NCBI GenBank assembly: GCA_021815305.1
Contig: JAKAHC010000007.1
Coordinates: 1-64,000 of the forward strand
DNA: 64,000 bases
Direction: 5' to 3'
Origin: Deltaproteobacteria bacterium
Lineage (GTDB): Bacteria; Desulfobacterota; Deferrimicrobia; Deferrimicrobiales; Deferrimicrobiaceae
In this document: in pieces, positions 1,497 through 11,758 of the stretch
How positions within the stretch are numbered: position 1 is the stretch's first letter
Layout: each line of letters starts with the position of its first letter
Program-made: the position numbers and the translations under genes
Notes under the pieces: model-generated
Database searches by the model: none
Told to the model about the DNA's origin: nothing
Seen by the model: the letters and a program-made list of their open reading frames with translations, nothing else

Positions 1497-1517
1497 GCAC
1501 TAAGAAGCAAAGCAACA

Positions 1518-1570
1518 GGCGATGGAGTTCGCCGATAACCGCTGTCGTTCGGACGGCCGATGACTCCTAC
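1518..1570 (+). promoter_or_regulatory. Fluoride riboswitch 1 (crcB motif)
   Basis: The sequence contains GGCGATGGAGTTCGCC, then GATAACCGC, a variable hairpin, and CGATGACTCCTAC. This is the conserved crcB-motif fluoride aptamer: the GGCGA/TCGCC stem, the AACCGC junction, and pairing of GGAGT with ACTCC. The 3' end of the aptamer (CTCCTAC) is also the 5' arm of the terminator at 1564-1598, so fluoride binding should prevent termination and switch the downstream genes on. It heads the HAD - HEAT-like - GTPase - MFS unit. Confidence 0.95.
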
Positions 1571-1598
1571 CCGACACCCGTTGGGCAGGAGTTTTTTT
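1564..1598 (+). terminator. Intrinsic terminator, expression platform of fluoride riboswitch 1
   Basis: The arms 1564-1575 and 1580-1591 pair over 12 positions with one mismatch and one G-T pair around a 4-base loop, followed by seven T residues (1592-1598). The 5' arm overlaps the aptamer, giving mutually exclusive folds. Confidence 0.92.
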
Positions 1599-1614
1599 AT
1601 GCGCGGAGGCGTCC

Positions 1615-2085
1615 ATGCTGGAACTTGAAATCCCGGGGTTTGGAACGGTTCGTGCCGAGCATCTGGTATCCGATTTCACGGGGACCCTGGCTGTGGACGG
1701 CAAGCTGCTGTCCGGCGTCGAAGAACGGTTGGCTGCCCTCGCGAAGTTCCTGAAAATCCATGTCGTGACCTCCGACACGCTCGGCGTAGTGCGCTCCGAA
1801 ATGAAAGGATTGCCGTGCGTCCTCCACGTTCTCGCGGGGACCAATCACGACGTGCAGAAAGAGGAGTACGCGAGGAAACTGGATCCCGCCAAGGTGATCG
1901 CCATCGGCAACGGGAAAAACGACCGGAGGATGCTGAAGGCGGCGAGGATCGGGATCGCCGTTTCGGGAGGCGAGGGGTGCGCCGTGGATGCCCTTCTCAA
2001 CGCCGATATCCACGCAAGAAGCGTGGGCGAGGGGCTGGACCTCCTGATGCATACGGAGCGGATGAAGGCGACGCTGCGTTTTTAG
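1615..2085 (+). CDS. Small HAD-superfamily phosphatase, P-type-ATPase-like core
   Basis: Protein of 156 residues, first gene after fluoride riboswitch 1. Motif I is SDFTGTLAVDG with the nucleophile at Asp20, resembling the DKTGT signature of P-type ATPases rather than the DxDxT of most HAD phosphatases. The C-terminal metal motif GNGKNDRRML near residue 98 matches GDGxND of the same group. There are no membrane segments, so it looks like the soluble P-type-ATPase-like HAD proteins (COG4087 type). HAD proteins have been reported as fluoride-riboswitch-associated; substrate and role are unknown. GGAGG at 1605-1609 supports ATG 1615. A reporter-like 9-codon ORF starting at 1599 is ignored. The next gene follows after 69 bases. 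Confidence 0.82.
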   Translation: MLELEIPGFGTVRAEHLVSDFTGTLAVDGKLLSGVEERLAALAKFLKIHVVTSDTLGVVRSEMKGLPCVLHVLAGTNHDVQKEEYARKLDPAKVIAIGNGKNDRRMLKAARIGIAVSGGEGCAVDALLNADIHARSVGEGLDLLMHTERMKATLRF

Positions 2086-2154
2086 AATTGCGCACCGGAA
2101 TCCCCGGGAGGCTGTCCCACCTTGTCTGAGGATCGAGGGGAAGGATCGGCGGGA

Positions 2155-3144
2155 ATGAAAATGGAGAAGATGGATTCGGCCCTGAAGATCGTCGTCCTCG
2201 TCGACCGCCTGAATTCGCTGAAAGAAGGGGAGCTTGCCGTTGCCGATCTTGTGGCGTGCGGCAAGGGAGCTGTCGAGCCTTTGCGGAGGTTCCTGCTTTA
2301 TGGAAAGCCCAGTGGAATCTTTCAGCCGCGGCAGCATGCCGTGGAGGCGCTTGCGGAACTCGGCGCCAAAGAGGTCCTGCTCGAATATCTCACTTTCGAG
2401 AAGCATATCTCCGATCCCGTCGATCGATATGGCGAAGAGGCGGTGGAAAATACCGCGGCGCGAGTCCTTGGGGGTTGGCGTGACGAGGACGTCTATAACG
2501 TCCTCCTGCGGCTCCTGCGCGGGAAGCCGATGCCGGGCGTGATCGAAACCATCGGCGAGTACCGGCGAACCGAGGCGATCCCCGATTTCCTGCGCGCCCT
2601 CGGCGACGACGTTGCCGGTGGCCCCGCGGAAGAAGCCCTGCGGAAAGTCGGGGAACCCGCACGCCGGCCGTTGATGGATGCCGCCCTGACCCCGGTTCCT
2701 TCCGCCGCGGATGAAACCCCTTCCAGCCTGCGCCGTCGCGCTTCCGCCCTGCGTCTTCTCGCCGAACGGAATCTGTCGGCGGAAGACGGACGCAACCTCG
2801 CTGCCCTGACACGCGACCGTGACCCGGAAATCGCCGTGTGTGCGTGCCGGATCGCCCTGCTCGTGGGGAAAGAAAGCTGCCGGCAACTTGCGGTCCGCCG
2901 CTTGGTCGAGGTGCTGCCGGAAGTCGACCTGTTTCTGCAGACGGAGATCGAGGGCTGGCTGTTGCGGCGTTTCGACAGCGCCCGGATCGTTCTCGATGAA
3001 GAGATCGCTCGCCGTCAACCTGCGACGGAGGCCGCCCGATCCCCGGACAAGGTGCTGCTATTCCTGCTTGCCGTGAAACGTAGAGCGGATGCCGAATCGA
3101 GGGATGGTCATGACTCCGGGGGACACCGAAAAACCGGCCGGTAA
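2155..3144 (+). CDS. HEAT-like repeat protein in fluoride unit 1
   Basis: Protein of 329 residues, soluble and helix-rich. It contains repeated alpha-helical units of the HEAT/PBS-lyase type, for example AVEALAELGAKEVLLEYL, ENTAARVLGGWRDEDVYNVLL, IPDFLRALGDDVAGGPAEEA and IAVCACRIALLVGKESC. No catalytic motif is visible. HEAT-like arrays usually bind proteins, so a scaffold or partner of the GTPase encoded next is a reasonable guess. ATG 2155 is preferred because AAGGA lies about 10 bases upstream; an upstream in-frame TTG at 2122 is a weaker alternative. The 3' end overlaps the GTPase gene by 35 bases, a sign of translational coupling. Confidence 0.72.
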   Translation: MKMEKMDSALKIVVLVDRLNSLKEGELAVADLVACGKGAVEPLRRFLLYGKPSGIFQPRQHAVEALAELGAKEVLLEYLTFEKHISDPVDRYGEEAVENTAARVLGGWRDEDVYNVLLRLLRGKPMPGVIETIGEYRRTEAIPDFLRALGDDVAGGPAEEALRKVGEPARRPLMDAALTPVPSAADETPSSLRRRASALRLLAERNLSAEDGRNLAALTRDRDPEIAVCACRIALLVGKESCRQLAVRRLVEVLPEVDLFLQTEIEGWLLRRFDSARIVLDEEIARRQPATEAARSPDKVLLFLLAVKRRADAESRDGHDSGGHRKTGR

Positions 3145-4867
3145 CAGGAAGGAGTGGACGTCCTCGACCGCGCCCCGGAGTTTGTTGCGCGAATACGACA
3201 AGGTCAAACTCGAGCTTGCGGGACTGATCCGGGAGGTCATCGTGCAGGAGACAGCCGACGAGGGTATCCGGAACGAAGGGCAGGAACTGCTGACCCGCCT
3301 GGCGGAGGATCGGTTCAACGTGGCGGTTGTGGGCCGATTCAGTCGCGGAAAGACATCGCTGATGAATGCTGTCCTTGGCTGGGACCGGCTGCCGACGGGA
3401 ATCCTGCCTCTGACTTCCGTGCTCACCAAGGTGCGGTACGGCACCAGAGAACGGGTTCTCGTCTGTTATGCAAACAGTTACATGCCGCAGGAAATTTCCT
3501 TGGAACAGATCCCCGATTACGTTACCCAGGACGGCAATCCCGGGAATCGCAAGGGCGTGGACTATGTGGAGATACAAATTCCCTCCGAGACGCTGCGCCG
3601 GGGGTTCGCTTTCGTGGATACGCCCGGGCTCGGCTCGACCATCGCCGAAAACACCTCCATCACCACCGGCTTCTTCCGGGAAATGGACGCCGTGGTCGTG
3701 GTCACAAGCTTCGAGGCGGCCCTGTCGCAGGAAGAGATGGAGTCCCTCCGCCAAGCGGCGCAGGGGGACAGGAAAACGTTTCTGGTGATCAACAAGCAGG
3801 ATCTCGTCACCGGGGAAGAGCGGGACAAGGTCTTGCGTTACGTTGAGGAGAGGCTCACAGATGAGGTTGGGTCCGCCGGCGCCAGGGTCTTTGCCGTCTC
3901 TGCCCGCGATGGCCTCCATGCCAAGCAGGGAGGGGATGCAATAAAGCTTCGGGCCAGCGGTTTGCCGGAATTCGAACAGGAACTCGTACGCTTTCTCACC
4001 GCCGGGAAAGCGGAAAAGACGCTGACGCTTACCTGCCGACGGCTGCTCGACCTGGTTGCCGGAGCCGGGATTTCTTCGGACGCCGCAATTCCGACGCGGA
4101 TCCGGGAAATTCAAGGGAAGCTTCGGGATGATGGCGGTCAAGAACCCGCTTCCGGGGTTCCAGCTTCCACGGCAGCCTTTCTGCGTTCGGACCAGGCCCG
4201 GCTGGACCGATCGTGCCCCATTTGCGGAGAAGTGATCACACGTGTCTTCGATTTTCTATGCCGGTACCAATACCGGTTGAGCACCAGCCGCGAGGCATAT
4301 TCAGCGCATGCCGCGGACGGTGGATTTTGCGCCATGCATACCTGGCAGTACGAAAAGATCGCCTCTCCTCATGGTGTTTGCACCGCCTATGCGGAATTTC
4401 TTGATACCATGGCCCATCAGCTGCGCAGCGTGGCAGGCAAGGCGGAATCCGTCGCAGACCTTTCCTCGGGCATCGCCCGCTTGGCGATATTGTCCCCGAA
4501 GTGCAAGGCATGCCAGGTGCAAACTTCCGCGGAAGATGATGCCCTTTCAAGGTGGTTGTCCAAGGTGTCCGAGCCCGAAAAAGACGGGCCGCAGGAACTT
4601 CCTCTTCCATGCTTTCTGCATTTTCCTGCGTTCCTGGCGAGGATTACGGATGCGGAACTCGCTCGGACATTGGTGGACCGCCAGGCGGAAGTTTGCGAGA
4701 GAGTATCGGAAAACATGCGGCGCTCCGCCTTGAAGCACGACGCGAAGCGCCGCGCCTTGCTGAGCGACGAAGAAAGGCGTGCGCACCTGCAAGGGCTCAT
4801 GATCCTGGCGGGAGATCGGAGGGTGGCCGCGGCCGGCGCCGAAACGGAGGATCCGTGGCTGGGGTAA
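3110..4867 (+). CDS. Dynamin-like GTPase with C-terminal Cys/His region
   Basis: Protein of 585 residues. G1/P-loop GRFSRGKTS (75-83), possible G2 threonine near 102, G3 DTPGLGS (170-176) and G4 NKQD (228-231) show a complete large-GTPase domain of the bacterial dynamin-like type. The second half is helical. It holds CPIC (369-372), C384, GGFCAMH (C407/H410), C424 and CKAC (465-468), a probable metal-binding region resembling DUF6062-like CPIC..FC..H proteins (from memory). ATG 3110 is preferred because GAGGG ends 6 bases upstream; ATGs at 3089 and 3104 are possible. It is the third gene of the fluoride-riboswitch unit. Known bacterial dynamin-like proteins remodel or protect membranes; a role during fluoride stress is inference. 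AlFx and MgFx are classic transition-state mimics in GTPases. Confidence 0.82.
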   Translation: MTPGDTEKPAGNRKEWTSSTAPRSLLREYDKVKLELAGLIREVIVQETADEGIRNEGQELLTRLAEDRFNVAVVGRFSRGKTSLMNAVLGWDRLPTGILPLTSVLTKVRYGTRERVLVCYANSYMPQEISLEQIPDYVTQDGNPGNRKGVDYVEIQIPSETLRRGFAFVDTPGLGSTIAENTSITTGFFREMDAVVVVTSFEAALSQEEMESLRQAAQGDRKTFLVINKQDLVTGEERDKVLRYVEERLTDEVGSAGARVFAVSARDGLHAKQGGDAIKLRASGLPEFEQELVRFLTAGKAEKTLTLTCRRLLDLVAGAGISSDAAIPTRIREIQGKLRDDGGQEPASGVPASTAAFLRSDQARLDRSCPICGEVITRVFDFLCRYQYRLSTSREAYSAHAADGGFCAMHTWQYEKIASPHGVCTAYAEFLDTMAHQLRSVAGKAESVADLSSGIARLAILSPKCKACQVQTSAEDDALSRWLSKVSEPEKDGPQELPLPCFLHFPAFLARITDAELARTLVDRQAEVCERVSENMRRSALKHDAKRRALLSDEERRAHLQGLMILAGDRRVAAAGAETEDPWLG

Positions 4868-6063
4868 CCCGGAACGGCTGGATCACCAGGAGCGTCATCG
4901 GCATCGGCCTCACCAGCCTCTTCAGCGACATGGGGCACGAGATGGCCACCGCCGTTCTCCCCATGTTCCTTGCCGCCCTCGGCGGGACGGCGGCGACCCT
5001 GGGGCTCATCGAAGGGGTCTCGGACGCCTCTTCAAGCTTCGTCAAGCTCTGGATGGGGCACTACAGCGACCGGATCGGCAGGCGAAAACCCATCGCGGTC
5101 GTCGGTTACGCGATCACCGCGTGCAAAGGACTCCTTGCGGTCGCCGCCAACTGGCACCAGGTGCTCGCCATCAGGACCGTGGCATGGATGGGCAGGGGTG
5201 CCCGGGGACCGGTCCGGGACGCGTTGCTGGCCGACACGGTCGAGCCCGCCTGCTACGGGCGGGCGTTCGGGTTCCACACGGCGATGGACACCACGGGAGC
5301 GGTGATCGGCCCCGCCATCGCGTTCGTGCTGATCGGGGTCGTGAGCTACCGGCAGATCTTCCTCATCTCCGTCGTCCCGGGCGTTCTCTCGGTCGCCTGC
5401 TTTGCGGCGATGGTCAGGGAGCGCGCCCGCAAGCCCGACGGAAATCCGCGCCTCTGGGCGCGGGTCCGCGAGTTGCCTCGCGATTTCAAACTGTTCGTGG
5501 TCAGTGTGGGGATCTTCGGCATGGGGAACTTCGCCCATACGCTCCTGATCCTGCGGGCGATGGAGATCCTTACGCCGGAATACGGGAAAACCGCGGCCGC
5601 GGGGACCGCGGCGGGGCTGTATACGCTCCACAACATCCTCTATGCGGGGGTCGCCTATCCGGCCGGGGTCGTGAGCGAAAGGGTCGGCAAGCGCCCCCTC
5701 CTCGTGGCCGGGTATCTGCTGTTCGCCCTGATGTGCCTGGGGTTTCTCCTCGAACCGCCGCGACTCTGGGCCATGGCCATCCTCTTTTCCCTGGCCGGAG
5801 TCTACATCGCTCTCGTCGATTCCATGGAAAGGGCCATGGCGGGGGACCTCCTCCCCGGACATTTGCGGGGTACGGGGTACGGCTTGATGGCGACGGTGAA
5901 CGGCGTCGGCGATTTCGTCTCCAGCTTCGTGGTCGGGCTCCTCTGGGCCAAGGTTTCCCCCGCGGCGGGTTTTCTCTATGCCGGCGCCCTGACCTTTATC
6001 GGCGGCATCGTGCTTTTCTTGTTGCGGAATACGGGAGGGCCGCGGGAAGCGACGGTTCCATGA
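4855..6063 (+). CDS. MFS transporter, last gene of fluoride unit 1
   Basis: Protein of 402 residues with about 12 hydrophobic segments. The loop between segments 2 and 3 reads HYSDRIGRRKP, the major facilitator motif A. The early segment MGHEMATAVLPMFLAALGG recalls drug-proton or sugar-phosphate-like exporters, but the substrate cannot be read from sequence. GTG 4855 is chosen because GGAGG (4846-4850) precedes it; it overlaps the GTPase stop codon by 13 bases, so the four genes of unit 1 should be co-transcribed from the riboswitch. This is not one of the established fluoride exporters (CLC-F, Fluc). It could export a metabolite that builds up when fluoride blocks enzymes. Confidence 0.83.
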   Translation: MAGVTRNGWITRSVIGIGLTSLFSDMGHEMATAVLPMFLAALGGTAATLGLIEGVSDASSSFVKLWMGHYSDRIGRRKPIAVVGYAITACKGLLAVAANWHQVLAIRTVAWMGRGARGPVRDALLADTVEPACYGRAFGFHTAMDTTGAVIGPAIAFVLIGVVSYRQIFLISVVPGVLSVACFAAMVRERARKPDGNPRLWARVRELPRDFKLFVVSVGIFGMGNFAHTLLILRAMEILTPEYGKTAAAGTAAGLYTLHNILYAGVAYPAGVVSERVGKRPLLVAGYLLFALMCLGFLLEPPRLWAMAILFSLAGVYIALVDSMERAMAGDLLPGHLRGTGYGLMATVNGVGDFVSSFVVGLLWAKVSPAAGFLYAGALTFIGGIVLFLLRNTGGPREATVP

Positions 6064-6147: not shown

Positions 6148-6156
6148 ATGGAAGCA

Positions 6157-6204
6157 GGCGATGGAGTTCGCCGTGAACCGCCCGAACGGGCTGATGACTC
6201 CTGG
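6157..6204 (+). promoter_or_regulatory. Fluoride riboswitch 2 (crcB motif)
   Basis: The same core as aptamer 1, GGCGATGGAGTTCGCC, then GTGAACCGC, a short CCGAACGGG hairpin, and CTGATGACTCCTGG. The expression platform differs from the other three: no terminator overlaps the aptamer. Instead ACTCC could pair with GGGGGG at 6221-6226, which would act as ribosome binding site for a 29-codon ORF starting at 6229, and a separate hairpin with a T-rich tail follows at 6263-6299. It controls the unit that ends in enolase. Confidence 0.93.
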
Positions 6205-6228
6205 TCGTGGATCTTCGCAAGGGGGGTT

Positions 6229-6318
6229 ATGCCCGTGAGACGGAAACCGTGTGTATCCCGATGCCCGTTGGGAACCTTCCCTGCGGGCGTTTCCTTTTTC
6301 GGGACCGGTGCCGGATAA
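6229..6318 (+). CDS. Possible 29-codon leader ORF after fluoride riboswitch 2
   Basis: ATG 6229 follows AAGGGGGG with a 2-4 base gap and reads MPVRRKPCVSRCPLGTFPAG to a TAA at 6316-6318. The ORF runs through the hairpin at 6263-6288, and its stop overlaps the GTG start (6308) of the next gene. This is the arrangement of a leader peptide or translational coupler. There is no evidence that it is translated, and codon content alone does not decide. No homology is recognised. Confidence 0.3.
   Translation: MPVRRKPCVSRCPLGTFPAGVSFFGTGAG
6263..6299 (+). terminator. Possible attenuator hairpin in the leader of fluoride unit 2
   Basis: GCCCG (6263-6267) pairs with CGGGC (6284-6288); an inner stem GGGAA/TTCCC (6270-6274 and 6277-6281) closes a tiny loop. 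It is followed by TTTCCTTTTT (6290-6299), a T-rich but interrupted tail. It does not overlap the aptamer, so any link to fluoride sensing must be indirect. Confidence 0.5.
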
Positions 6319-6694
6319 GCGCGGCCCAAGGCAGGAACGGTGGGACGCGGCGTCCTCGCGCGCCCGCGAGGAACTCCTGCGCCCCTGTCCCTACCTCGGG
6401 TACGACCACGACCGGATCGGGGTCCACTGCCTCTCCCGCGAGGCGTACGGCATCGCGGAGCGGTCGTTCCGCCGGGCGATCTGGCTCAACCCGTACGAGC
6501 CGGGGTTTCGCCTTCACCTGGCCCACGCGCTCTTCCGGCAGAAGCGGCACGAAGAGGCGTTGGACGTGCTGGACGAGCTGCGGCGGGAACGGCCCGATTT
6601 TCGCCGGGAGCAGGAGTTGCGGGACGCCATCCTGGAGGCGCAGAACGCGGGGAAAGGAGGGGGGGATGCCGGAGAAAGAAGAGGGCGCCCCTGA
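6308..6694 (+). CDS. TPR-like protein, first gene of fluoride unit 2
   Basis: Protein of about 128 residues, starting at GTG 6308 (an upstream in-frame ATG at 6251 would lie inside the leader hairpin and is rejected). It holds the block CPYLGYDHDRIGVHCLSREA and then a TPR-like repeat pair, AERSFRRAIWLNPYEPGFRL and ALFRQKRHEEALDVLDEL. A Cys and His cluster near the N-terminus (CPYLGYDHD..GVHCLS) could bind metal. Function unknown; TPR proteins usually mediate protein contacts. It overlaps the next gene by 29 bases and sits two genes before enolase, so it is expected to be induced by fluoride with it. Confidence 0.6.
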   Translation: MPDKRGPRQERWDAASSRAREELLRPCPYLGYDHDRIGVHCLSREAYGIAERSFRRAIWLNPYEPGFRLHLAHALFRQKRHEEALDVLDELRRERPDFRREQELRDAILEAQNAGKGGGDAGERRGRP

Positions 6695-7028
6695 AGGGGC
6701 GCATGCGGAGGATACGGTTGCCTTGCGGAAGGAAAACGAGAAATTTCTCGCGATGGTGAACGAGCTGTCCACCCGGTTTGCCGCGTTGAATTTCAGGGCC
6801 TATGAAATGGCGGAGGAGGTCCGGAACCTGGAGATGCGGCTGTCGGGGACGCAGGCGACGCTACGGTGCATCGAATGGGAGAATGGCCAGCTCCGCACGG
6901 AGATCCGGCTTCTCCGCAAGGTCCTCCTGGAGTTCGGCGACCCGCCTCCGCAACTCCGGCAGCTGGTGGAGTCGTACCGCCACGAGATGTGTTCCCGGGG
7001 GACGCTGCCGGGGGAGAAGGAAAAGTGA
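6666..7028 (+). CDS. Small coiled-coil protein in fluoride unit 2
   Basis: Protein of 120 residues starting at ATG 6666, with a GGAGGGGG stretch just upstream. The central part (residues about 20-95), containing [35 protein letters not shown] and [17 protein letters not shown], has heptad spacing typical of a long coiled coil. There is no signal peptide, membrane segment or catalytic motif. It overlaps the TPR-like gene, and enolase follows after 55 bases. I do not recognise the family. A structural partner of the TPR protein or of enolase is conceivable but unproven. A longer in-frame ORF extending up to 6207 crosses the riboswitch region and is not used. Confidence 0.6.
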
Positions 7029-7083
7029 CGAAAAGGCCGATACCCCGGATGCGGGGAACCCATGCCGTGAAGGGAGGGCGCCG

Positions 7084-8370
7084 ATGAGCCGGATACGGAA
7101 TGTGGTCGCGAGGGAAATTCTCGATTCACGGGGGAATCCGACGGTTGAGGTGGACGTCGTCCTGGAAAACGGGATCGTCGGACGGGCGGCGATCCCTTCC
7201 GGCGCATCGACGGGGGAGAGGGAGGCCGTGGAGCTGCGGGATGGGGACAAGAAGCGGTTCGGAGGGAAGGGTGTTCTCCGCGCGGTGAAGAACGTGGAGA
7301 AAACGATCGCCCCCGCGGTCGTGGGGATGGCTCCGACGGACCAGCTCGCCATCGACCGTAAAATGATCGGGCTCGACGGCACGCCGAACAAGGAGAAGCT
7401 CGGGGCGAACGCGATCCTGGGGGTGTCCATCGCCGCGTGCAAGGCGGCGGCGGCATTGTCCGGTCTTCCGGTGTACCGGTATCTCGGCGGGCCGACCGCG
7501 CACCTTCTGCCGGTCCCCATGATGAACGTCCTCAACGGCGGCAGGCACGCCGACAACAACGTCGACCTGCAGGAGTTCATGATCGTGCCGCTGGGACCGG
7601 CTACCTTTTCCGAGGCGTTGCGGTACGGCGTCGAGACGTTCCACGCGCTGAAAGGCGTGTTGCGCGGGAAAGGGTACCAGACGGCGGTCGGGGACGAAGG
7701 CGGGTTCGCGCCGATGCTCCGGAGCAACCTGGAGGCGATCGAGGTGATCCTGGAAGGGATCGTTGCGGCCGGGTTCAAACCGGGGAAGGACGTCGCGCTG
7801 GCGCTGGACCCGGCGGCGAGCGAATTCTTCGAGGACGGGAGATACGTCTTTTCCAAATCGGACAAGAGCCGGAAGACGTCGGAGGCGATGGTCGCGTTCT
7901 ACGCAGACCTTGTCCGTCAGTTCCCGATCGTGTCGATCGAGGACGGCCTCGCGGAGAACGACTGGAACGGGTGGAAGATCCTTCAAGGGAAGCTGGGAGA
8001 CAAGATCCAGATCGTCGGCGACGACATCTTCGTGACGAATACGGATCTGCTGTCCCGCGGGATCGGGGAGGGGGTCGCCAACTCCGTCCTGATCAAGCCG
8101 AACCAGATCGGTACCGTGAGCGAAACCGTGGAGGCGGTGGAGATGGCGCGCGGGGCCGGCTGGACCGCGGTCGTATCGCACCGGTCGGGGGAGACCGAGG
8201 ACGCCTTCCTCTCCGATTTCACCGTGGCGATGGGGATGGGGCAGATCAAGACGGGCAGCGTCTGCCGGACGGATCGCGTCTGCAAATACAACCAGTTGGT
8301 GCGGATCCAGCAGGAGTTGGGGGAGACCGCGGCGTTTGCGGGGGGAACGCCGTTTCATCGCCGGAAGTAG
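7084..8370 (+). CDS. eno: Enolase (phosphopyruvate hydratase)
   Basis: Protein of 428 residues, the normal enolase length. It interconverts 2-phosphoglycerate and phosphoenolpyruvate in glycolysis and gluconeogenesis, needing two Mg2+. It has the N-terminal [15 protein letters not shown], the loop [18 protein letters not shown], the metal-binding stretch [20 protein letters not shown], and the signature [17 protein letters not shown] with the catalytic Lys; all are intact. ATG 7084 follows a GGAGGG stretch. Enolase is the textbook enzyme inhibited by fluoride (with phosphate and Mg2+), and enolase genes under fluoride riboswitches are known. Here it is the third gene of unit 2. Whether a second, constitutive enolase exists outside the window cannot be seen. 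Confidence 0.97.
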
Positions 8371-8427: not shown

Positions 8428-8445
8428 CGCCCGAAATCGAAAAAC

Positions 8446-8498
8446 GGCGATGGAGTTCGCCGATAACCGCTGTCGTTCCGACGGCTGATGACTCCTGC
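8446..8498 (+). promoter_or_regulatory. Fluoride riboswitch 3 (crcB motif)
   Basis: GGCGATGGAGTTCGCC, GATAACCGC, a hairpin with loop GTTC, and GGCTGATGACTCCTGC match the crcB consensus and are nearly identical to aptamer 1. The CTCCTGCCC end forms the 5' arm of the terminator at 8492-8526. It heads the unit holding the fluoride channel gene crcB, the most typical partner of this riboswitch. Confidence 0.96.
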
Positions 8499-8526
8499 CC
8501 GATATCCATGGGGCAGGGGTTTTTTT
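8492..8526 (+). terminator. Intrinsic terminator, expression platform of fluoride riboswitch 3
   Basis: 8492-8500 pairs with 8511-8519 over nine positions (one G-T pair) with a 10-base loop, then seven T residues (8520-8526). The 5' arm is shared with the aptamer, so ligand binding should relieve termination. Confidence 0.92.
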
Positions 8527-10289: not shown

Positions 10290-10664
10290 ATGCAAATCGT
10301 CTTGTATATCGCCTTGTTCGGCGCCCTTGGGTGCCTCTCCCGGTACTATGTTTCCGGGTGGGTCTACGATCTCCTGGGGAGGACGATGCCGTACGGGACC
10401 TTCGCGGTCAACATCCTCGGGGCGTTCCTCATCGGGCTCATCATGGAGTTTTCCTTGCGCAGCTCCCTCGTTTCCCAGGAGCTCCGGATCGGGCTGACCA
10501 TCGGTTTCCTCGGGGGGCTCACCACGTTTTCCACCTTCAGCTACGAGACGTTCCGCCTGCTGGAGAGCGGCCAGCTCCTGCAGGCGCTTGCGAATGCGCT
10601 CGTGAGCGTGTCCGCCTGCCTGGCCTTCACGTTCGCCGGGATCGTCGCCGCGCGCCACCTGTAG
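10290..10664 (+). CDS. crcB: Fluoride channel CrcB/Fluc
   Basis: Protein of 124 residues with four membrane helices, the usual Fluc size. It shows GALGCLSRY at the end of helix 1, GTFAVNILGAFLIG (the helix 2 Asn) and GFLGGLTTFSTFSYE, the helix 3 break that holds the central Na+ and the phenylalanine track for F-. Fluc proteins form dual-topology dimers with two pores that let cytoplasmic F- leave. The start ATG 10290 follows AGAAGGAG. It is the third gene of unit 3, downstream of riboswitch 3, so export is induced by fluoride. The DUF190 gene follows after 11 bases. Only one crcB gene is present, consistent with a homodimer. Confidence 0.97.
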   Translation: MQIVLYIALFGALGCLSRYYVSGWVYDLLGRTMPYGTFAVNILGAFLIGLIMEFSLRSSLVSQELRIGLTIGFLGGLTTFSTFSYETFRLLESGQLLQALANALVSVSACLAFTFAGIVAARHL

Positions 10665-10675
10665 AGGAGGAAAAG

Positions 10676-11020
10676 ATGTCCAAGCTCGTCGGTAGAAACG
10701 TGCTGATGCGGATCTTCATCGGGGAAGGGGACCGGTTCGGACACCGCCTCCTGCACGAGGCGCTCGTGGAACTCTTCAAGAAGGAGGGGTTCGCAGGAGC
10801 CACGGTGCTTCGCGGGATGTCGGGTTTCGGGGCCCACAGCGTGTACCACACGGACACGCTGCTGCGCCTTTCGAGGGATCTGCCCGTCATCGTGGAGGTC
10901 GTGGACACCAAGGAGCGGATCGACCGGGTGATGCCGAAGATCGACGAGATGATGTGCGGAGGGATGATCACCCTCGAGAAGATCACGGTGGTGCGGTACA
11001 GCCACAAACACGAGACGTAG
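10676..11020 (+). CDS. DUF190 family protein, partner of CrcB
   Basis: Protein of 114 residues. It shows the DUF190 pattern: RIFIGEGDRFGHRLLHEALV, GATVLRGMSGFG, and DLPVIVEVVDTKERI. The predicted ferredoxin-like alpha/beta fold resembles small PII-like signal proteins (from memory of the family). DUF190 genes are very often neighbours of crcB, and a regulatory or gating role for the channel has been suggested by context. AGGAGG lies just before ATG 10676, right after the crcB stop. It is the last gene of unit 3; a GC-rich hairpin follows. Confidence 0.9.
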   Translation: MSKLVGRNVLMRIFIGEGDRFGHRLLHEALVELFKKEGFAGATVLRGMSGFGAHSVYHTDTLLRLSRDLPVIVEVVDTKERIDRVMPKIDEMMCGGMITLEKITVVRYSHKHET

Positions 11021-11033
11021 GCGCTTCCCGGTC

Positions 11034-11056
11034 CCCCTCCCTGGACCCGGGAGGGG
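11034..11056 (+). terminator. GC-rich hairpin after fluoride unit 3
   Basis: CCCCTCCC (11034-11041) pairs perfectly with GGGAGGGG (11049-11056) around a 7-base loop, 13 bases after the DUF190 stop. No T-run follows, so it may slow or end transcription only partly, or protect the mRNA 3' end. Confidence 0.4.
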
Positions 11057-11067
11057 CCTGAGGGGCC

Positions 11068-11096
11068 TTGAGCGGATCCGGGATGCGTGGTATGTT
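11068..11096 (+). promoter_or_regulatory. Extended -10 promoter of fluoride unit 4
   Basis: TTGAGC (11068-11073), a 17-base spacer ending in TGG, then TATGTT (11091-11096). This sigma70-like promoter with an extended -10 would start transcription at the fourth aptamer (11106). Confidence 0.6.
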
Positions 11097-11105
11097 TCAG
11101 AGAGA

Positions 11106-11159
11106 GGCGATGGAGTTCGCCGAAAACCGCCAGTCTTTCCGACGGCTGATGACTCCTGC
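11106..11159 (+). promoter_or_regulatory. Fluoride riboswitch 4 (crcB motif)
   Basis: GGCGATGGAGTTCGCC, GAAAACCGC, a hairpin with loop CTTTC, and GGCTGATGACTCCTGC. The core is identical to the other three, while the variable hairpin differs, so these are not merely a recent tandem copy. The ACTCC of the aptamer pairs with GGAGT of the terminator at 11152-11187. It controls a Cys-rich protein and a dynamin-like GTPase, with no exporter in the unit. Confidence 0.95.
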
Positions 11160-11187
11160 GATTCCCATGCGTTCGCCGGAGTTTTTT
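11152..11187 (+). terminator. Terminator of fluoride riboswitch 4; its 3' arm includes the ribosome binding site
   Basis: ACTCC (11152-11156) pairs with GGAGT (11178-11182), extended inward by four more pairs after a mismatch, followed by six T residues (11182-11187). The GGAG of the 3' arm lies 7 bases before ATG 11189 and is the only ribosome binding site for that gene. The off-state hairpin would therefore both stop transcription and hide the ribosome binding site. Confidence 0.85.
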
Positions 11188-11188
11188 C

Positions 11189-11758
11189 ATGTCCGATTCC
11201 CCATGCCTTCCGGCCTGCAGTTACCGGCGCATGGCGCGGTGCGGGCCGGGTTTCCCCCCGCATTACGTGTGCGGCTGTTCCGGCGGGATCCCGATCGGCA
11301 CGGTGGGGGAAGAGTCATCCCTCCTCGCGGAAACGTGCGGGCCGTGCGACATTCCCCCCGAACTGTCCCCCGTACGCCGCCGGTGCCTTTTCCTGGTTCC
11401 CGTGCGCCTCTGGGAGGGGGGATCTCTCCATACGGGTTTCTCCTGCCGTTGGTTCTACGCGCTGAAACCGGAATCGCTTCCGGGAGAGGTGTGGCAGGTT
11501 TGCCTCGGCTGCCCCCACTGGTTTCCCCGTCCGGAGAACGAGGCCGACATCCCGGGAATGGACGCCTGGATCTTCAGGGTCCTCCAGGCGTACCGGGAGC
11601 CGGAGCCTGTCACCGTGTCCTCGTGGAAGACCCGCCCCGTCGACGTCCCATCGACATGGGCGGAGTCGGCGATGGAGCGCATCGGGAGGTGGATGGAGGT
11701 CCTGTTTCCGGACGGAGGAGTGACACGACGTTTCCGAAAGGGGCATGACACGCGATGA
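11189..11758 (+). CDS. Cys-rich protein of unknown function, fluoride unit 4
   Basis: Protein of 189 residues, starting immediately after the riboswitch terminator. It has 14 Cys, several in pairs: VCGCSGG, ETCGPCD and VCLGCPHWFP, plus CLPAC near the N-terminus. This suggests one or two bound metal ions or an iron-sulfur cluster. No signal peptide or membrane segment is seen. The C-terminal third is acidic and Trp-rich (AWIFRVL, SSWKTRP, RWMEVLFP). I do not recognise the family. It overlaps the following GTPase gene by four bases (ATGA), so the two are translationally coupled. The pairing of a Cys-rich moiety with a dynamin-like GTPase is mirrored in unit 1, where both are in one polypeptide. 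Confidence 0.68.
   Translation: MSDSPCLPACSYRRMARCGPGFPPHYVCGCSGGIPIGTVGEESSLLAETCGPCDIPPELSPVRRRCLFLVPVRLWEGGSLHTGFSCRWFYALKPESLPGEVWQVCLGCPHWFPRPENEADIPGMDAWIFRVLQAYREPEPVTVSSWKTRPVDVPSTWAESAMERIGRWMEVLFPDGGVTRRFRKGHDTR

Follow-up and report, generated by a model that had tools for sequence, protein, structure and literature searches.

A rare eight-cysteine protein encoded with a dynamin-like GTPase behind a fluoride riboswitch

The window analysed here, a stretch of 64,000 nucleotides, carries four of the five fluoride riboswitches of its genome (Table 1). An open reading frame (ORF) of 189 codons with an ATG start lies directly behind the fourth of them, as an earlier sequence-only reading had stated, and its 3' end shares 4 bases (ATGA) with the start of a gene for a dynamin-like GTPase. 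That reading credited the ORF with 14 Cys; the count is 11, at positions 6, 10, 18, 28, 30, 50, 53, 66, 86, 105 and 108. With a background of 1.3% Cys, estimated by hand from the neighbouring genes, 11 Cys in 189 residues would arise by chance with a probability of about 4e-5. The other riboswitches of the genome head further genes. In the region 1509-6063 of the window, riboswitch 1 heads genes for HAD-like and HEAT-like proteins, for a second dynamin-like GTPase (3089-4867) that carries a Cys region with CPIC and CxxC at its C-terminal end, and for an MFS transporter. This transporter shares 27% identity (E 4e-24) with an MFS protein of a fluoride-riboswitch operon in the relative G069. In the region 6148-8370, riboswitch 2 is followed by a TPR-like ORF and an enolase gene, the latter recognised by eye from the sequence. 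The fifth riboswitch of the genome, in the region L004 1501-3062, precedes a gene whose product has MutS domain V (Pfam E 2.9e-16).

Table 1. Features at the riboswitch-4 locus and just upstream of it
Feature	Coordinates	Strand	Basis
Fluoride riboswitch 3, heads antiporter-Usp-CrcB-DUF190 genes just upstream of riboswitch 4	8437..8504	+	Rfam; genes by Pfam
CrcB/Fluc fluoride exporter	10290..10664	+	Pfam CRCB E 3.3e-31
DUF190 protein	10676..11020	+	Pfam E 7e-38
Fluoride riboswitch aptamer RF01734 (riboswitch 4)	11097..11165	+	Rfam cmscan 56.3 bits, E 6.4e-13
Terminator-like hairpin GACUCC..GGAGUU with U-tract	11151..11187	+	MFE fold
8-Cys-core protein, 11 Cys, no known family	11189..11758	+	189 aa
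Dynamin-like GTPase, 558 aa	11755..13431	+	Pfam Dynamin_N E 1.8e-16

In the fluoride riboswitch class, fluoride opens the switch. The Rfam gathering score of this class is 34 bits. In the predicted fold of the riboswitch-4 leader, a hairpin GACUCC-GCGA...UCGC-GGAGUU (11151-11183) is followed by a U-tract and CATG. The 5' arm of this hairpin (11151-11156) falls within the Rfam aptamer match, and the 3' arm carries GGAG (11178-11181), the Shine-Dalgarno sequence of the Cys-rich ORF, with a gap of seven bases to the ATG. Therefore, one RNA element can block transcription and mask the ribosome-binding site. The whole leader folds no better than shuffled sequences (MFE z -0.85), and a simple consensus scan of 10950-11250 found no promoter or terminator. 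We credit the terminator arrangement because the same geometry recurs in the homologue locus of G025 (J040). This genome belongs to a family other than that of the window, and there a riboswitch of 59.1 bits lies directly 5' of the Cys gene and a dynamin gene lies 3' of it, so that aptamer, terminator, GGAG, U-tract, ATG, Cys-rich protein and dynamin follow one another as in the window. A terminator overlapping the aptamer has been described for crcB RNAs in the available part of PMC2864571. The expression platform of riboswitch 4 is predicted to compete with the aptamer through the overlapping hairpin arm. Fluoride control of the ORF, proposed in the sequence-only reading, is borne out by the leader anatomy and its recurrence in relatives and is very likely, and the ORF would be induced by fluoride in the source organism.

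Homologues of the Cys-rich protein are rare. Credible family members were found in five genomes of the phylum, namely the window genome (G000), G008, G025, G069 and G332; the G008 copy is a remnant and the G332 copy ends at a contig end. The first search recovered 3 of 59 relatives, the window genome itself included (G000, G008, G025). A two-row profile matched 7 of 395 genomes and added G069 and G332 as credible, and a three-row profile matched 6 of 395 genomes and, within the class to which G069 belongs, 2 of 23. Matches in G061, G106, G315, G138 and G333 were dropped (E 0.002-0.01; internal stops in G061, G138 and G333). Plasmids gave no tblastn match and viral contigs held no homologue. 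Genome contigs gave none with the single protein as query, and two matches, both at already known loci, with the three-row alignment. The window protein shares 36/38% identity with the J040 copy and 31/32% with a homologue from another family. An alignment of the three intact sequences has 27 invariant positions, of which 8 are Cys (C10, C28, C50xxC53, C66, C86 and C105xxC108). Cys is enriched among them, since 8 of the 11 Cys of the window protein lie within these 27 positions (hypergeometric 8e-6), and the J040 copy contains precisely these 8 Cys and no others. Identity across the three copies is lowest at codon position 3, and differing codons encode 27 of 46, 30 of 47 and 23 of 39 identical residues. 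The doubt whether the frame is conserved in relatives falls away, because homologues occur in four other genomes and the three intact copies share the 8 invariant Cys. These sequences define a real, previously unnamed family of 8-Cys proteins.

We regard it as practically certain that the ORF encodes a real protein. According to the opposite explanation, the dynamin gene alone is regulated, and the Cys frame is just part of its leader. It could draw on the sister genome G013, in which dynamin directly follows DUF190 without a Cys gene, on the G008 remnant, which has no good start codon, and on the G+C content by codon position (0.63/0.57/0.78), which is coding-like, blunter than that of the neighbours and slightly atypical. 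However, conservation between families holds at the protein level while the codons differ synonymously, and stops interrupt the remaining forward frames of the homologues, which makes this explanation hardly credible. The sequence-only reading knew of no family for the protein, and the look-ups agree: no match was obtained in Pfam (E≤1 and E≤10), NCBIfam, PADLOC or PHROG, and the PDB gave chance matches only (cytidylyltransferase, lectins; E 0.28 or worse). No membrane helix of sufficient hydrophobicity occurs in the intact copies by the Kyte-Doolittle scale over 19 residues, the peak of the window protein being 0.81. AlphaFold2 models from three-row alignments reached a mean pLDDT of 35.6 and 33.2, with strands (65-76/79-90 and 65-73/82-90) at pLDDT <50 only. 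The protein appears to be small and soluble with a conserved 8-Cys core, most likely forming two structural metal sites of the Zn-ribbon type. The 8 invariant Cys make a metal site plausible, and it is probable from their pattern that the protein binds metal. A SoxD-like zinc subunit (sarcosine oxidase delta) would account for weak matches over 32 residues (NCBIfam E 0.095; PDB 2gag_D E 0.34), but the score against SoxD (TIGR01374) is 12.9-13 bits with a cut-off of 116.5, an hhalign comparison with three SoxD-like proteins from this phylum gives a probability of 5.3%, and the N-terminal CPxC knuckle of SoxD is left unaligned; this identity is very improbable. Ferredoxin-type Fe-S proteins have a CxxCxxC motif. 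The sequence-only reading had offered an Fe-S redox protein, which would serve electron flow or oxidative stress under fluoride, and the 8 conserved Cys could carry clusters. CxxCxxC is nevertheless absent from the window protein, the spacing C-x2-C-x12-C-x19-C..C-x2-C is unlike ferredoxin or HiPIP patterns, and no redox family of Pfam or NCBIfam matches even at E≤10. A pair of structural metal sites is a better match for the two CxxC knuckles and four single Cys, and an Fe-S role is improbable. Al3+, Mg2+ and Fe, likewise named as ligands in the sequence-only reading, gain no support from these data.

A riboswitch lies directly before the Cys gene at three of the five loci (G000, G025, G069). 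In G008 the Cys gene is inside a riboswitch operon with the order riboswitch, antiporter, Usp, Cys remnant, dynamin; the C-terminal half of the remnant is gone, and no start codon lies between the Usp stop and the first conserved residues. The G332 leader opens riboswitch-like with ggcgatgaggtt, is masked thereafter and was not counted. The family is confined here to fluoride-riboswitch loci, one of the five being unjudgeable with its leader masked. In G069 (N1 bin), a riboswitch of 39.8 bits precedes a homologue of 285 aa with an extra CxxC-rich N-terminal part. No dynamin gene lies beside this Cys gene, and none was found in the genome at E≤1e-40; the pair is not obligate because of this case. 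The Cys gene is immediately 5' of dynamin at three of the five loci (G000, G025 and the G008 remnant). The family search across fluoride-riboswitch loci that the sequence-only reading had recommended found three further homologue loci in such operons. The HMM detected the Cys gene at 0 of 100 sampled riboswitch loci, and a relaxed Cys-spacing regular expression matched none of the 1746 frames behind them. ORFs with ≥5% Cys behind the sampled riboswitches looked by eye to be mostly wrong-frame readings, and the Zn-ribbon/HEAT ORFs among them were unrelated to the 8-Cys core. Fluoride riboswitches are repeatedly followed by Zn-ribbon (YCPNCW / FCPFCW) plus HEAT-type proteins, in G069 (L072 2671-5691), G356 (G356:C6:38409) and G137 (G137:C90:6867), with DUF6062 additionally in G069. 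The second riboswitch of G069 heads genes for prenyltransferase-repeat, Zn-ribbon/HEAT, MFS and DUF6062 proteins. An M-box Mg2+ riboswitch (L072 6417-6595) precedes a gene for a cation P-type ATPase near both fluoride riboswitches of the N1 bin.

The overlap with the dynamin gene is the most informative context of the Cys-rich ORF. The window dynamin-like GTPase has a P-loop, DTPG and TKAD, and its GTPase part matches 2j68 (BDLP), 6j72 (IniA) and 5owv in the PDB (E 6e-12 to 2e-9); we take 2j68 to be BDLP of Nostoc and 5owv to be DLP of Campylobacter. P-loop, DTPG and [TN]KxD are intact in 16 of 16 dynamin proteins of the window's class. In 13 of these 16, hydrophobicity peaks in an LLWFLIP-type segment, which may be a lipid-touching loop. 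Among the 26 genomes of this class, 17 have a fluoride riboswitch and 18 have a relative of the window dynamin, the latter being the same 17 and a fragment in G002. Outside the class, 100 riboswitch sites were sampled; they are the best-scoring among those listed outside families f1/f2 and not a random sample, and six of them have less than 1 kb of downstream sequence. With a profile built from the 16 class proteins, 34 of the 100 sites, in 33 of 85 genomes, are followed by a dynamin gene in the same orientation (E<1e-20). Thirty-two of the 34 dynamin genes open within 350 nt of the aptamer start, and one further dynamin behind a riboswitch, in G307, is a weak match (1.4e-9). Many fluoride riboswitches can occur in one genome (11 in G293, 7 in G348, and 5 each in G331 and G383 among the matches listed). 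Over 395 genomes, dynamin was found at E≤1e-40 in 80, and 75 of these are also riboswitch-positive. This corresponds to 75 of the 158 genomes with a riboswitch and 5 of the 237 without one (Fisher p 8e-30, shared ancestry ignored). Viewed from the dynamin side, at least 45 of 72 dynamin places outside the class have a listed riboswitch no more than 4 kb upstream in the same orientation, and at least 42 have one within 450 nt; the 72 places leave out three second or third matches or pieces (G381, G399, G300). The dynamin-like GTPase is a common and recurrent gene of fluoride regulons in the phylum.

We propose that the locus is a switch that produces an 8-Cys metal protein and a dynamin membrane module together, and as a whole this explanation has about an even chance of being right. 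Riboswitch 4 would sense fluoride, and the bound aptamer would hold the 5' arm (ACUCC), so that the overlapping terminator is prevented. Transcription would read through, and the GGAG ribosome-binding site, otherwise hidden by the terminator, would become free. Translation of the Cys-rich ORF would run via the ATGA overlap into the dynamin gene, and both proteins would be made together. C10, C28, C50xxC53, C66, C86 and C105xxC108 would build two four-Cys metal sites, most likely for Zn. The Cys-rich protein may be a rare accessory or regulator of the fluoride-induced dynamin module; that it works with dynamin is a possibility to which we give slightly less than even weight. The dynamin might protect or reseal the inner membrane under HF or weak-acid stress, by analogy with IniA under drug stress, and we hold this protective role only tentatively. 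According to the available part of PMC6715688, IniA carries out membrane fission, and its proposed role is to preserve the integrity of the plasma membrane when drugs are present. Alternatively, the Cys-rich protein could be an independent metal protein of fluoride stress (a buffer, chaperone or scavenger) that is merely beside dynamin, with separate products. We keep this alternative, rather unlikely as it is, because in G069 the Cys gene follows a riboswitch of its own with no dynamin next to it, most dynamin loci lack the Cys gene, and the structure models are of low pLDDT. The position of the Cys gene directly before dynamin at most of its loci, and the 4-base overlap in the window, speak against it and for the co-produced metal protein and dynamin module. 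A bolder version of the latter, which we consider improbable, is that the 8-Cys protein senses the metal or metal-fluoride state and sets the activity of the co-translated dynamin. Dynamin, as a standard fluoride-regulon gene, would then be the core of a dedicated membrane-remodelling fluoride module of the phylum, joined in some lineages by the 8-Cys protein, and the membrane would deal with HF or GDP-metal-fluoride in addition to export.

Fluoride biology has been framed in terms of export, a small set of target enzymes and the control of pH. The Cys family, and the dynamin strongly tied to these riboswitches across the 395 genomes sampled, suggest that fluoride resistance has an unstudied membrane arm. 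Relatives of both proteins are encoded behind such switches in other bacteria, and the bacterial response to fluoride may therefore include membrane-related functions beyond export. To our knowledge, the physiological triggers of bacterial dynamins are mostly unknown, and a riboswitch-controlled dynamin is a clean inducible handle on one of them.

The window dynamin is like IniA (6j72), BDLP (2j68) and DLP (5owv) in its GTPase part, and IniA is likewise induced by stress, as described in the available part of PMC6715688. Unlike these three, it stands under a fluoride riboswitch with a Cys-rich protein as a putative partner. DUF6062 and Zn-ribbon-HEAT proteins are likewise Cys-motif proteins behind fluoride riboswitches; no sequence relation was found between them and the 8-Cys core. 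The open-licence literature yielded no link between the fluoride riboswitch and dynamin, nor between it and a cysteine-rich protein, and the word dynamin is absent from the main text of PMC11139923, PMC7266159 and PMC2864571. The genes associated with fluoride riboswitches in the available parts of these three papers are those for exporters, Na+/H+ antiporters, pyrophosphatase, HAD, enolase, formate hydrogen lyase and mutS; antiporters and enolase, the latter often, are riboswitch-associated in that of PMC11139923. The riboswitch-4 locus resembles such regulons of the crcB motif RF01734 in its aptamer, its overlapping terminator and its neighbours CrcB, Na+/H+ antiporter, Usp and enolase, and differs from the regulons described in those parts in its Cys-rich protein and dynamin-like GTPase. 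In summary, the locus is a regulon of a known kind, and the Cys-rich protein and dynamin are its new members within the open-licence literature.
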